This document shows positions 12,956 to 17,189 of a stretch of 38,450 nt of DNA, piece by piece. The DNA lies in contig JALFIB010000126.1 of assembly GCA_022776305.1 (NCBI GenBank), positions 1 to 38,450 on the forward strand. The letters run 5' to 3'. The translations under genes and the position numbers were made by a program. The notes below the pieces were generated by a model, which ran no database searches, was not told the origin of the DNA, and was given only the letters and a program-made list of their open reading frames with translations. Origin of the DNA: Lachnospiraceae bacterium. GTDB lineage: Bacteria > Bacillota > Clostridia > Lachnospirales > Lachnospiraceae. How positions within the stretch are numbered: position 1 is the stretch's first letter; each line of letters opens with the position of its first letter.

Positions 12956-15367
12956 TTACTCTGTTTTTAAGATCAGCTGCAGCACTCTTCTGGCACAGTC
13001 CCGCAATTCTTCTTTTGTAAGCAATCCTTTTTCCAAAGCAGCCATCAGCCGCTCCGGATAACCTGTTCCCATCTTGATATCATTTCCGGCTTTCACTTCT
13101 TTGTAATGCTCGCCTTTCGTCCACCAGTCCGTAGTGACCACCCCTTCATATCCCCATTCACCGCGGAGGATATCTTCCAGAAGCTCACGGTTTTCCGATG
13201 CTCTCTGGCCATTGACCAGATTATAAGACGTCATCAAAGCCCATGGCTGGGATTTTTTTACACAGATTTCAAATCCCTTTAAATAAATCTCACGAAGAGC
13301 GCGCTCTGAAACCCTTGAGTCGCTGTTCTTGCGGTTTGTTTCTTTATTGTTGCAGGCAAAATGCTTTATGGTGGCAGCCACTTTTTGAGACTGGATCCCC
13401 TCTACCATGGCAGCCGCAATCGTACCTGTCAAAAGAGGATCCTCTGAATAATACTCAAAATTCCTGCCGCAAAGAGGGCTTCTGTGAATATTCATGGCAG
13501 GAGCCAGCCAGATGGAAATATTATTCTCTTTTACCTCTTCCGCTGCAGCGCAGCCCACTTTCCGTACAAGATCCGGATTCCAGGTGGACGCAAGCATGGT
13601 AGCGCAAGGCCAAGAGGTAGTATAGATTCCGCATTTCGGTTCGATCCTAAGGCCGGCAGGGCCATCCGCCGTCATAAGATTAGGGACACCATATTCCGGA
13701 AGATTACCAAAGCCGAATGTATTTGCCACACCGGTATTTGGCTGCCCCCCTAAAAGCTCCGCCATGTCCGCTTCTGTAAGCTGATCCATGAATTCTTCCA
13801 GAGAAGCATTCCCTTCTGCCACATCATCCAGTAAGATTTTCTTCTCCTGTTCCTTCGGCCACAACAGGTATCGTCCGACCGCTCTGACAAAAGGTGTTAC
13901 CCCTTCTGTCTCTTCGCCGCTCCAACCCAGCCCGTTTTCCATAAAATCATAAGGTGCTCCCTGTTCCAATTCTTCATAGGAACCGTCAGAAACCATGCGT
14001 TTTGGAAGTTGTCTGGGCGCCAGTTCTTGTGAAAGCTGCTCTGTCACTTCGTCTTTCATCACATCCAGCTCAAAGGGGATCTTTTTTGCATCCCGCACAG
14101 AATTTCCCACATAAAAACAGTAGGATCCTTTCTCCAGAACATATGCGGATTTTTTAATTTTCCCCAGATCATCATAGGATGCCAGTGCGGCCACCGGGAA
14201 GGACAGCGTCATCATCTGTGCTTCTCCCGGAATGAGGTTTTTAGTCTTTTCAAAGGCAGCCAGCACCCTGAAAGGCTTGCCCAGTTTTCCCTGAGGAGCG
14301 CCGCAGTACACCTGTACCACTTCTTTTCCCGGAACTTTCCCCGTATTTTCCACCTGTACCGTAATTACGATCCGGTCATCTCTTAACCCGGCCCAGATCA
14401 CATCAATAGAAAACTCCGTATAAGAAAGGCCAAATCCAAAGGGATAATTCACCGTCTCTTTTGCCTGTTCTATCGTTTCAAAATAGCGGTATCCCACGTA
14501 AATATCTTCCCTATATTCCACGTAAGCAGGAGAATCATGGAAATTTGCCGTAGAAGGATAATCGTCCAGGCTTGCGGCAAATGTATCTGGGAGCTTACCC
14601 GACGGGTTTTCCTTTCCCAAAAGGATATCCGCCATAGCAAGGCCGCCCTCCATGCCTCCCTGCCATGCAAGAAGTACCGAAGAGATCTTATCTTCTTTCG
14701 CGAACCATGTGGTATCTACCATGCCTCCCACATTGAGAACTGCGACCACTTTTTCAAATTTTTCACATACTGCACGGACCATTTCCTGCTCTCGGTCTGT
14801 CAGGCAGTAATCGGACTGTTCAAAAACCCGCCTGCTCATCTCACTTTGGGATGCCTCATATGGATCCTGCCCTTCATAGGATACGCTTCTGCGGTCCCAT
14901 CCTTCCCCGGAAAAACGGCTGATCACGATCACCGCCGTGTCTGCAAATTCTCTTGCCTCCCTTACAAGTACCTCCGGAAGCTGCGGTTCTACGGTCATAC
15001 CGGGAATCGCCCCGTCGCGGTACTGCCGCTCTACCTCATCTTTATAAAATCTTGCCAGCGGTTCAAATACCATATCAACTGCATCATTTTTTACAAATCC
15101 GTCGTAAAGGTTCCACACATGGGAAACTGTCACATCTCCGCTTCCGCCGCCGCCCTTTACATAGTCAAATACGCCTTTCCCGAACAGAGCCACTTTTCCA
15201 TCCTTTTTCAGTGGCAAAAGCCCTTCGTTATTTTTAAGCAGCACCATGCCTTCGCATCCTGCTTTTCTTGCCAGTGCCAGATGCTCCGGCGATGCTGTCA
15301 CTTTCCTATCGTGCCCCTCTAAAGGCAGGTTTGGCATATATCTTGCCCTTCTCCATCTGCTTTCCAT
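12956..15367 (-). CDS. GH3 beta-glucosidase with permuted domain order
   Basis: This 803-residue glycoside hydrolase family 3 enzyme has its domains in reversed order. The GH3 C-domain comes first ('GMVLLKNNEGLLPL', 'GGMEGGLAMADILLG', 'PFGFGLSYT'). A fibronectin-III-like domain follows ('VQVENTGKVPGKEVVQVY'). The TIM-barrel half comes last ('MTADGPAGLRI', 'KHFACNNKETNR'), ending with the nucleophile motif 'GVVTTDWW' (D747). Butyrivibrio and Ruminococcus beta-glucosidases are known for this permutation. There is no signal peptide, so it acts in the cytoplasm, probably on cellobiose or other beta-glucosides. I chose the ATG at 15367 because GGAGG lies five bases upstream. The frame stays open to a TTG at 15454 without a ribosome binding site. 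The MATE gene lies 117 bp upstream on the same strand. Confidence 0.92.
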   Translation of the reverse strand: MESRWRRARYMPNLPLEGHDRKVTASPEHLALARKAGCEGMVLLKNNEGLLPLKKDGKVALFGKGVFDYVKGGGGSGDVTVSHVWNLYDGFVKNDAVDMVFEPLARFYKDEVERQYRDGAIPGMTVEPQLPEVLVREAREFADTAVIVISRFSGEGWDRRSVSYEGQDPYEASQSEMSRRVFEQSDYCLTDREQEMVRAVCEKFEKVVAVLNVGGMVDTTWFAKEDKISSVLLAWQGGMEGGLAMADILLGKENPSGKLPDTFAASLDDYPSTANFHDSPAYVEYREDIYVGYRYFETIEQAKETVNYPFGFGLSYTEFSIDVIWAGLRDDRIVITVQVENTGKVPGKEVVQVYCGAPQGKLGKPFRVLAAFEKTKNLIPGEAQMMTLSFPVAALASYDDLGKIKKSAYVLEKGSYCFYVGNSVRDAKKIPFELDVMKDEVTEQLSQELAPRQLPKRMVSDGSYEELEQGAPYDFMENGLGWSGEETEGVTPFVRAVGRYLLWPKEQEKKILLDDVAEGNASLEEFMDQLTEADMAELLGGQPNTGVANTFGFGNLPEYGVPNLMTADGPAGLRIEPKCGIYTTSWPCATMLASTWNPDLVRKVGCAAAEEVKENNISIWLAPAMNIHRSPLCGRNFEYYSEDPLLTGTIAAAMVEGIQSQKVAATIKHFACNNKETNRKNSDSRVSERALREIYLKGFEICVKKSQPWALMTSYNLVNGQRASENRELLEDILRGEWGYEGVVTTDWWTKGEHYKEVKAGNDIKMGTGYPERLMAALEKGLLTKEELRDCARRVLQLILKTE

Positions 15368-15484: not shown

Positions 15485-16825
15485 TTAGACATACAATACT
15501 TTTTGCTTATTCATATGATGGTAATAAACAAGGCACATCACTATGCCAAATACTGTAGCTGTGGGAGCCGCAAGTCCTATGCCGGTCAGTGAAGCATTGG
15601 GCCGGATACTCATAAGATAGGACATGGGCAATCGGATCAAAAACGACTGCGCAAGCCCCTGCAGCATCACGAACATAGATCTGGAATGCCCGTTGTAATA
15701 TCCCAGAAAACTAAATAGTATACTCGTTATGATCGCCTCAGGCGCAAAGCCCCTCAGATACTCAAAGGCTCTGGCAATATCACGTTCATTATTTGAGAAT
15801 ATGGAAGCCAGCATATCTCCTTTAAAGAACGCGAATGCAGCAATCACAACGCCTATTCCTGCACCCACTGCCATTCCGTAAAGCATCCCTTTTCTGGCGC
15901 GGTCTTCTTTTCCGGCACCTACATTTTGTGCCACAAAAGATGCCATGCACTGCATGAGTGAACCGGGTACCAACATGATGAAGGATTGAATCTTCTGTGC
16001 GATTCCATACCCGTTGGATGCATCCAGACCTAATCGGTTGATAAAAGCACAAAGTGCAAGAAAAGTAAGATTGGTGAGCAGCTCCTGCAGCGCCAGCGGC
16101 GCTCCCACCTTCACAAATGCTTTCGTCTTCTTTCCGAACCGGATGTCCTTCAAGGAGAAAAGGAAAGGCAATTTCTGCCTGCGGATGATTACGAGTGATA
16201 AAATAACACTGACTGCCTGTGCTGCAATGGTTGCAATGGCAGCTCCCGCCACATTCAGATGGAATACAGCGATCAACAAAAGATCTCCTACTATGTTCAC
16301 AACGCAGGCAATGGCTACAAAGAGCAGCGGCAGCTGGGAATTCCCCAACCCTCTGAATATACAGCTGATCAGGTTATAGAATACTACGAAAAGAAACCCA
16401 ATACCGCATATCCGGATGTACTGTGCAGTCAATGCCACTGCTTCTTCCGGTGCCTGCATCAGCACTGCAATAGGGCGGGCAAATAAGATCAGTACTACCG
16501 AAAGTATTGCTGCTAAAATCAGGAAAAACGAAATGGCATTTCCGATCAGGGAACCAATCTGGTCATTCCTTTTCTCTCCCAGATATTTTCCCAGCAAAAT
16601 CGTCACTCCGGTAGCCAGAGCATTCAGTACAAAAGTCAGCAGGTTCATAATACTGCTTCCGGTAGAAACTGCGGAAATCCCTGCATTCGTACCGAAATGT
16701 CCCACCACCAGCATATCCACAGCGCCATACATTGCCTGCAGTACCAATGCTCCCAAAATGGGAAACATAAACTGTATCATTTTTCCAAAGATACTGCCCT
16801 GTGTAAAATCCTGCTTATTATTCAT
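15485..16825 (-). CDS. MATE-family efflux transporter
   Basis: This 446-residue membrane protein has about 12 hydrophobic segments and the two-fold repeated MATE fold ('FPILGALVLQAMYGAVDMLVVGHFG' region, and 'APLALQELLTNLTFLALC' in the second half). MATE proteins export drugs or metabolites using a Na+ or H+ gradient; the substrate is not predictable here. The ATG at 16825 overlaps the 3' end of the SH3-like gene by eight bases (ATGAATAA), so the two are coupled. Both are transcribed from a strong promoter carrying a CIRCE operator, which would place this exporter under HrcA heat-shock control. Confidence 0.93.
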   Translation of the reverse strand: MNNKQDFTQGSIFGKMIQFMFPILGALVLQAMYGAVDMLVVGHFGTNAGISAVSTGSSIMNLLTFVLNALATGVTILLGKYLGEKRNDQIGSLIGNAISFFLILAAILSVVLILFARPIAVLMQAPEEAVALTAQYIRICGIGFLFVVFYNLISCIFRGLGNSQLPLLFVAIACVVNIVGDLLLIAVFHLNVAGAAIATIAAQAVSVILSLVIIRRQKLPFLFSLKDIRFGKKTKAFVKVGAPLALQELLTNLTFLALCAFINRLGLDASNGYGIAQKIQSFIMLVPGSLMQCMASFVAQNVGAGKEDRARKGMLYGMAVGAGIGVVIAAFAFFKGDMLASIFSNNERDIARAFEYLRGFAPEAIITSILFSFLGYYNGHSRSMFVMLQGLAQSFLIRLPMSYLMSIRPNASLTGIGLAAPTATVFGIVMCLVYYHHMNKQKVLYV

Positions 16826-17075
16826 GGAATTTCGTTTCCTTTAAATCGATCCATCCTTTGCCGCTTTTCAGCCTTCCCCAAAGGACGCCGTTCTTATTCC
16901 GCTTAATCTCTTCCAGCTGCAATGGAATATTCTCATTTGAAATGTCCCACAGCGGCGCATACTCTTCCCCCGGACCTGTGTACGTTTTCTTTTCTCTGCA
17001 TAACATATCCACCTTGCACGGAGCTCCATGTTTTTCAACCTTTTCCCATTCTTCTTCAAAATTCAACTGTTCCAT
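16818..17075 (-). CDS. Small cytoplasmic SH3-like protein
   Basis: This 85-residue acidic protein has no signal peptide or membrane segment. The sequence 'YTGPGEEYAPLWDI', followed about 25 residues later by 'VLWGRLKSGKGWIDL', is the pattern of a bacterial SH3 domain. Those are normally extracytoplasmic and bind the cell wall; this one appears to stay inside unless it is exported by an unknown route. AGGAGG precedes the ATG. It is the first gene after the CIRCE-bearing promoter and overlaps the MATE gene by eight bases. Its function is unknown. A regulatory or assembly partner of the exporter is one guess. Confidence 0.8.
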   Translation of the reverse strand: MEQLNFEEEWEKVEKHGAPCKVDMLCREKKTYTGPGEEYAPLWDISNENIPLQLEEIKRNKNGVLWGRLKSGKGWIDLKETKFHE

Positions 17076-17120: not shown

Positions 17121-17147
17121 TTAGCACTCTTTTCTTTTGAGTGCTAA
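17121..17147. promoter_or_regulatory. CIRCE element (HrcA operator)
   Basis: TTAGCACTC (17121-17129), nine bases, then GAGTGCTAA (17139-17147). Both arms match the CIRCE consensus perfectly. It lies just downstream of the start site of the SH3-MATE promoter, the usual place for HrcA repression. CIRCE normally controls groESL and hrcA-dnaK; none of those genes is nearby. Confidence 0.92.
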
Positions 17148-17161
17148 TTCATGTCATAGAA

Positions 17162-17189
17162 ATTGTAACACTTCTTTTTTATTTGTCAA
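17162..17189 (-). promoter_or_regulatory. Sigma-A promoter of the SH3-MATE operon
   Basis: Consensus TTGACA (17184-17189, minus strand), a 16-bp spacer and TACAAT (17162-17167). Transcription starts near 17155, just before the CIRCE element. Confidence 0.8.

Follow-up and report, generated by a model that had tools for sequence, protein, structure and literature searches.

The palindrome at positions 17121 to 17147 of the window, the 38,450-nucleotide stretch of Lachnospiraceae DNA analyzed here, is probably a working operator of the repressor HrcA, and the operon downstream of it, which encodes a protein of 85 residues and a MATE family exporter, would then belong to the class I heat-shock regulon as an accessory target particular to this species. 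The HrcA-CIRCE regulon of class I normally comprises groESL and hrcA-grpE-dnaK. The features of the site and its operon are on the minus strand of the window in the following arrangement.

17184..17189, minus strand: −35 box TTGACA, from a promoter search.
17162..17167, minus strand: −10 box TACAAT, preceded by TG, spacer of 16 bases, ending 14 bases before the CIRCE.
17121..17147, minus strand: CIRCE (palindrome), putative HrcA operator, with 0 mismatches to TTAGCACTC-N9-GAGTGCTAA.
16818..17075, minus strand: gene for the 85-residue protein, possibly with a bacterial SH3-type domain and, by eye, without a signal peptide; open reading frame preceded by AGGAGG.
15485..16825, minus strand: gene for the MATE family exporter of 446 amino acids; Pfam MatE with an E value of 2.9e-49, and TIGR00797.
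12956..15367, minus strand: beta-glucosidase-like gene, only a possible third member of the transcript; open reading frame, NCBIfam models below their cut-offs.

An earlier sequence-only reading had described two perfect 9-base arms with a 9-base gap at the start site of a near-consensus promoter. The pattern search agreed with this description of the arms and the gap, and with up to 3 mismatches allowed, the window contained no second match; in shuffled windows, the mean was 0.01 matches, and 1 of 100 shuffles contained a match at this threshold. The predicted promoter TTGACA-16-TACAAT fits the consensus at 11 of 12 positions, although promoter-like sites as a class were not enriched in the window, with 4 sites versus 3.6 in the shuffles. 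With a distance of 14 bases to the −10 box, the CIRCE starts near +8 relative to the predicted transcription start, so that it is close to the promoter as had been proposed but just downstream of the start and not on it. Another 45 bases separate the CIRCE from the gene of the 85-residue protein, with the AGGAGG ribosome site in front of the ATG. The predicted operator thus adjoins the promoter and is located upstream of the first gene, which is the placement expected of a member of the regulon.

The assembly to which the window belongs, as contig 196, has 2.92 Mb in 303 contigs and is 89.17% complete and 6.44% contaminated. Lack of an hrcA gene in this genome would have spoken against the assignment, as the sequence-only reading had pointed out, and one hrcA match is present in the assembly, on contig C45, as an open frame with no internal stop. 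It contains both HrcA domains, PF01628 with an E value of 2.3e-68 and the DNA-binding domain PF03444 above its cut-off. The whole assembly harbors six perfect CIRCEs, plus a seventh match with 3 mismatches, and a control with the reversed pattern yielded 0 matches in the whole assembly. Of the other five perfect CIRCEs, two are in front of groES genes and one each in front of hrcA, htpG (Hsp90), and a lon-type gene, and these gene names are backed by the Pfam domains HrcA, Cpn10 (twice), HSP90, and LON substrate-binding plus AAA. The window operon is on a different contig from hrcA and from both groES genes.

The distance from the −10 box to the CIRCE is 14 bases in the window, 14 at hrcA, 13 at lon, and 11 at the first groES gene. 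At the second groES gene, it amounts to 37 bases, as counted from the end of the best promoter within 90 bases, and the promoter-to-CIRCE geometry is not uniform among the sites of this assembly. The CIRCE is positioned between promoter and gene at hrcA, the first groES gene, lon, and the window operon, unlike that of htpG (L002 1501-1527, G000:C7), where it was seen by eye upstream of the likely −35 box. Since the window contains a perfect operator at the same distance as the hrcA site and at nearly that of the lon-like site, HrcA repression of the operon for the 85-residue protein and the exporter is very likely from the sequence.

The end of the gene for the 85-residue protein overlaps the start of the MATE gene by 8 bases. 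Assignment of the second product to the MATE exporters, already proposed before, was confirmed by PF01554 (167.3 bits versus a cut-off of 24.9) and by TIGR00797 (184.2 bits versus a cut-off of 147.4), while no specific equivalog of NCBIfam passed. The 85-residue protein itself had no family match in Pfam and NCBIfam. In an alignment of 14 of its relatives, the positions of the motifs G-x-G-x-x-Y and W-G-x-L-x-x-G-x-G-W were invariant or nearly so, and one of these 14 relatives matched Pfam SH3_3 with an E value of 9.9e-07. A profile compared with PDB chains gave weak matches only, a ribosomal protein with an E value of 0.055 as the best and 2krs_A with 0.12 as the second. The earlier description as SH3-like is therefore plausible by way of the matching relative, but it is not carried by the protein itself. 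One of the relatives of the small protein (L010) has, by eye, a signal-peptide-like start.

The glycosidase gene begins with an ATG at 15367, preceded by GGAGG, 117 bases after the MATE gene, and it matched glycosidase models of NCBIfam that were all under their cut-offs. No minus-strand terminator-like site was found between 15485 and 15367, but the last part of the MATE gene itself contains such a site (15547-15532). This gene is perhaps cotranscribed with the operon.

HrcA is reported to need GroEL for its activity and to be inactive once unfolded proteins occupy GroEL (PMC3842655, PMC8045354, PMC3828012). By analogy, HrcA kept active by free GroEL would at normal temperature occupy the CIRCE, a short distance into the transcript, and block the promoter (17189-17162). 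Titration of GroEL by unfolded proteins would inactivate HrcA, and the products of the operon, perhaps together with the glycosidase, would be made alongside the chaperones. We infer for this site binding of HrcA, repression, induction, and a benefit of the exporter; as a guess, the exporter may remove compounds that also damage proteins.

A conserved operator at this locus was proposed by the sequence-only reading as support for its assignment. Relatives of the small protein were sought in 98 genomes, in genome contigs, and in 397 family members at an E value of 1e-8. Besides the window, 18 loci were obtained, 15 of them from the 98 genomes and 2 and 1 from the additional searches, and a CIRCE at up to 4 mismatches was absent from the DNA fetched for all 18. 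Only three of these 18 relatives are stand-alone small proteins, L025 with 56%, L259 with 44%, and L011 with 40% identity, and the others are pieces of longer proteins, so that few true orthologues were available for judging the conservation of the CIRCE. At L025, the next gene is a DUF445 gene and not a MATE gene. Fourteen genus matches from the search of the 98 genomes were considered as orthologues and rejected, since they are located in open frames of 229 to 448 amino acids.

The exporter gave the same result. In 47 genomes of the genus, 34 MATE relatives were listed at an E value of 1e-80. Of these, 29 with 34 to 66% identity were fetched, and none had a CIRCE at up to 4 mismatches, with some of the flanks being cut by contig ends; the contigs of the other 5 contained no CIRCE at up to 1 mismatch. 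The closest MATE relatives, with 66% and 57% identity in G024 and G019, are in other gene settings, following a valyl-tRNA-synthetase-like and a MarR-like gene as read from the translations. Among the genomes searched, a CIRCE in this place was seen in this species only, and the wider proposal of a new, conserved branch of the regulon was not borne out. Of the proposal that the operon belongs to the class I regulon, the part based on a perfect and well-placed CIRCE, an hrcA gene, and five textbook sites in the same assembly holds, but the expected conservation does not.

All 47 genus genomes contain CIRCEs. The survey at up to 1 mismatch comprised 208 sites, 152 as regions and 56 in loci obtained earlier, which were classified by comparing the neighboring genes with reference proteins; a Pfam check of 9 reference proteins, including 3 of the 5 for hsp20 and 1 of the 2 for clpB, showed matching domains. 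Sites were assigned to groES (54), hrcA (46), htpG (42), hsp20 (21), lon (20), clpB (17), and the window operon (1), leaving 7 unplaced, two of which (L088 and L195) are at contig ends. Since a groES gene was found 485 bases from the CIRCE in L161, a total of 201 of the 208 sites are in front of hrcA, groES, htpG, hsp20, lon, or clpB, and one is in front of ftsH. The window CIRCE is the only one of the 208 genus sites at this operon. Of 392 order-level genomes, 174 matched a search for a CIRCE together with a ribosome site.

The ftsH site (L193 1001-1027, G044:C233) is a perfect CIRCE in front of a gene with FtsH and AAA domains, the sole such case among the 208; it had been a candidate for a lon site and was rejected because Pfam showed the FtsH domains. 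An ambiguous groES-type CIRCE promoter is present in L124 (975-1065, G027:C188), with no groES placed in the following 1 kb. The stretch downstream of it is shared, in opposite orientation, with the spacer between CIRCE and groES in L161 and is perhaps a small repeat element or an assembly break.

Uniqueness of the site needs to be considered also with respect to its origin. A captured or leftover operator, to which HrcA binds although regulation of the exporter brings no benefit, and which will drift away, is possible but clearly less probable than a functional accessory target. It would explain a CIRCE private to one species among 47 genomes, and a source may be indicated, because the window promoter plus CIRCE can be aligned over 99 bases with 73% identity to the hrcA promoter of G025. 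Moreover, 7 of the 10 classified matching loci were hrcA sites, compared with 2 htpG sites and 1 groES site, so that descent from an hrcA-type promoter may be possible. Captures also seem to happen in the genus, as a groES-type CIRCE promoter of about 80 bp in front of an acyltransferase gene in G030 indicates. On the other hand, both arms are perfect, like those of the five further sites in the assembly, and CIRCE and promoter are as far apart as at the hrcA site. The hrcA site of the same assembly aligns over 29 bases only, and most of the other alignments cover 29 to 41 bases, chiefly the CIRCE itself, which does not establish common descent. Copying from an hrcA promoter is suggestive only. 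The flanks of the window CIRCE match those of the second groES site of the same assembly over 7 bases on each side, the longest match among 207 sites with full flanks, with a runner-up of 13 versus 14 bases, and this hints weakly at copying from that site.

Alternatively, the window contig might have entered the assembly as contamination from a different species of the genus, in which case its link to the hrcA gene of the assembly would be accidental. Location of hrcA on another contig of a fragmented and contaminated assembly (303 contigs, 6.44% contamination) indicates a possible mix of two close species; two groES genes with CIRCEs are present, and the flanks of the window CIRCE are closest to the second of them, albeit with a runner-up nearly as long. 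This origin is improbable. Another species of the genus should very probably possess its own hrcA, as concluded from CIRCEs in 47 of 47 genomes and 46 of 208 sites at hrcA. That the contig itself is of this genus was indicated by an 811-residue protein encoded on it, which had matches in 37 of the 98 genomes at an E value of 1e-150. Most of the full-length matches in the genus had 78 to 83% identity, compared with 59 to 69% outside of the genus, the exceptions being G031 with 69 to 71% and the partial matches in G044 with 72% and in G045 with 84%; being closest within the genus, this protein places the window contig there. A chance palindrome without function, in favor of which there is only the lack of conservation, is very improbable, because about 4e-5 perfect copies were expected per genome by a simple base-composition estimate and the position fits the promoter and the ribosome site.

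The preferred reading, an accessory HrcA target, shares with the class I HrcA-CIRCE regulon the repressor family, a perfect operator, and a comparable location downstream of the promoter. Apart from the window operon, all five CIRCE genes of the assembly are core heat-shock genes. The difference is in the target, an exporter operon without a chaperone or protease. The sequence-only reading had regarded this as a new kind of HrcA target, but accessory targets were already published (PMC4989314, PMC3828012). For Waddlia chondrophila, a set of accessory HrcA targets, 12 genes among them, is reported from ChIP-Seq (PMC4989314), and there as here a conserved core is accompanied by targets mostly restricted to one species. 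The Waddlia data include ChIP-Seq and gel shifts for five promoters (PMC4989314), whereas the window offers sequence only, from another phylum and with a MATE exporter as target. The regulon of Clostridium acetobutylicum, another clostridial one with htpG and a membrane protein, is described as having an HrcA site that groESL shares with the adjoining CAC2705, which encodes a membrane protein of unknown function (PMC3828012), in contrast to the window operon with a CIRCE of its own. HrcA sites at lon and clpB are reported from Spiroplasma melliferum, which agrees with CIRCEs at lon and clpB in the genus of the window, but no exporter target was found in the part of that study considered (PMC5138195). 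An HrcA site at rpoH is reported for Geobacter sulfurreducens. In Lactobacillus plantarum, predicted HrcA targets of other kinds are described, the majority of which hardly changed in the hrcA mutant (fold changes near 1), and multidrug transporter genes are mentioned among those that the hrcA mutation affected at elevated temperature, without a claim of a CIRCE (PMC3842655). A MATE exporter as a direct HrcA target was not found in the literature examined, which was a partial and not an exhaustive selection. As a candidate, the window operon adds one more to the lineage-specific accessory HrcA targets already described.

Other sites of this kind were observed in the genus. In G022:C13 (L261 4488-6890, with the CIRCE at L099 1501-1527), a perfect CIRCE and a strong TTGACA-17-TATATT promoter immediately precede a CBASS-type operon. 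It contains a 2TM-Sa_NUDIX effector (Pfam, E value of 2.2e-54), a SMODS cyclase (PADLOC, 3.1e-86), and an E2-like protein (PADLOC, 3.8e-36), and looks like an apparently complete CBASS layout. No in-frame ATG of the effector is next to the ribosome site. Sa_NUDIX was present in 2 of the 47 genus genomes and in 2 of 397 sampled family genomes, and only the G022 locus has a CIRCE, the other three being without. A connection of HrcA with CBASS, or of CIRCE and heat shock with anti-phage functions, was not found in a non-exhaustive literature search. If true, defense would be switched on in this case when a phage or any stress occupies host GroEL. The promoter segment in G030 (L165 969-1050, G030:C165) has a one-mismatch CIRCE, is located between a MATE and an acyltransferase gene, and reads toward the latter.

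With three clear cases in 208 sites, including the window, accessory targets are rare. It is conceivable, if rather doubtful at present, that HrcA is in this genus a general sensor of GroEL shortage tapped by individual species via a CIRCE at accessory operons for an exporter, a CBASS-type system, or an acyltransferase.

CIRCEs were also found on viral contigs, in 104 stretches, 80 of which were taken as loci; a rough classification yielded 77 sites with a nearby open reading frame, 10 of them matching reference proteins. Three viral contigs with similar genes possess two perfect CIRCE cores each (L319 at 3471/3819, L323 at 9713/10143, and L340 at 10300/10691), which by eye are inside longer palindromes near small genes. 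They may serve phages as binding sites for the HrcA of their host, or belong to a different operator that has this core in common. In L270, L279, L291, L297, L301, L312, L320, L324, L335, L344, and L346, a perfect CIRCE is located 28 bases before genes that by eye resemble hsp20.

If the assignment of the window operon is true, the class I heat-shock regulon would, in a clostridial bacterium, include an exporter operon. This suggests that the CIRCE, although a very conserved operator, is still gaining species-specific targets. If several of these targets share a logic of export, defense, and membrane lipids, the loop of GroEL and HrcA would be a reusable stress sensor.
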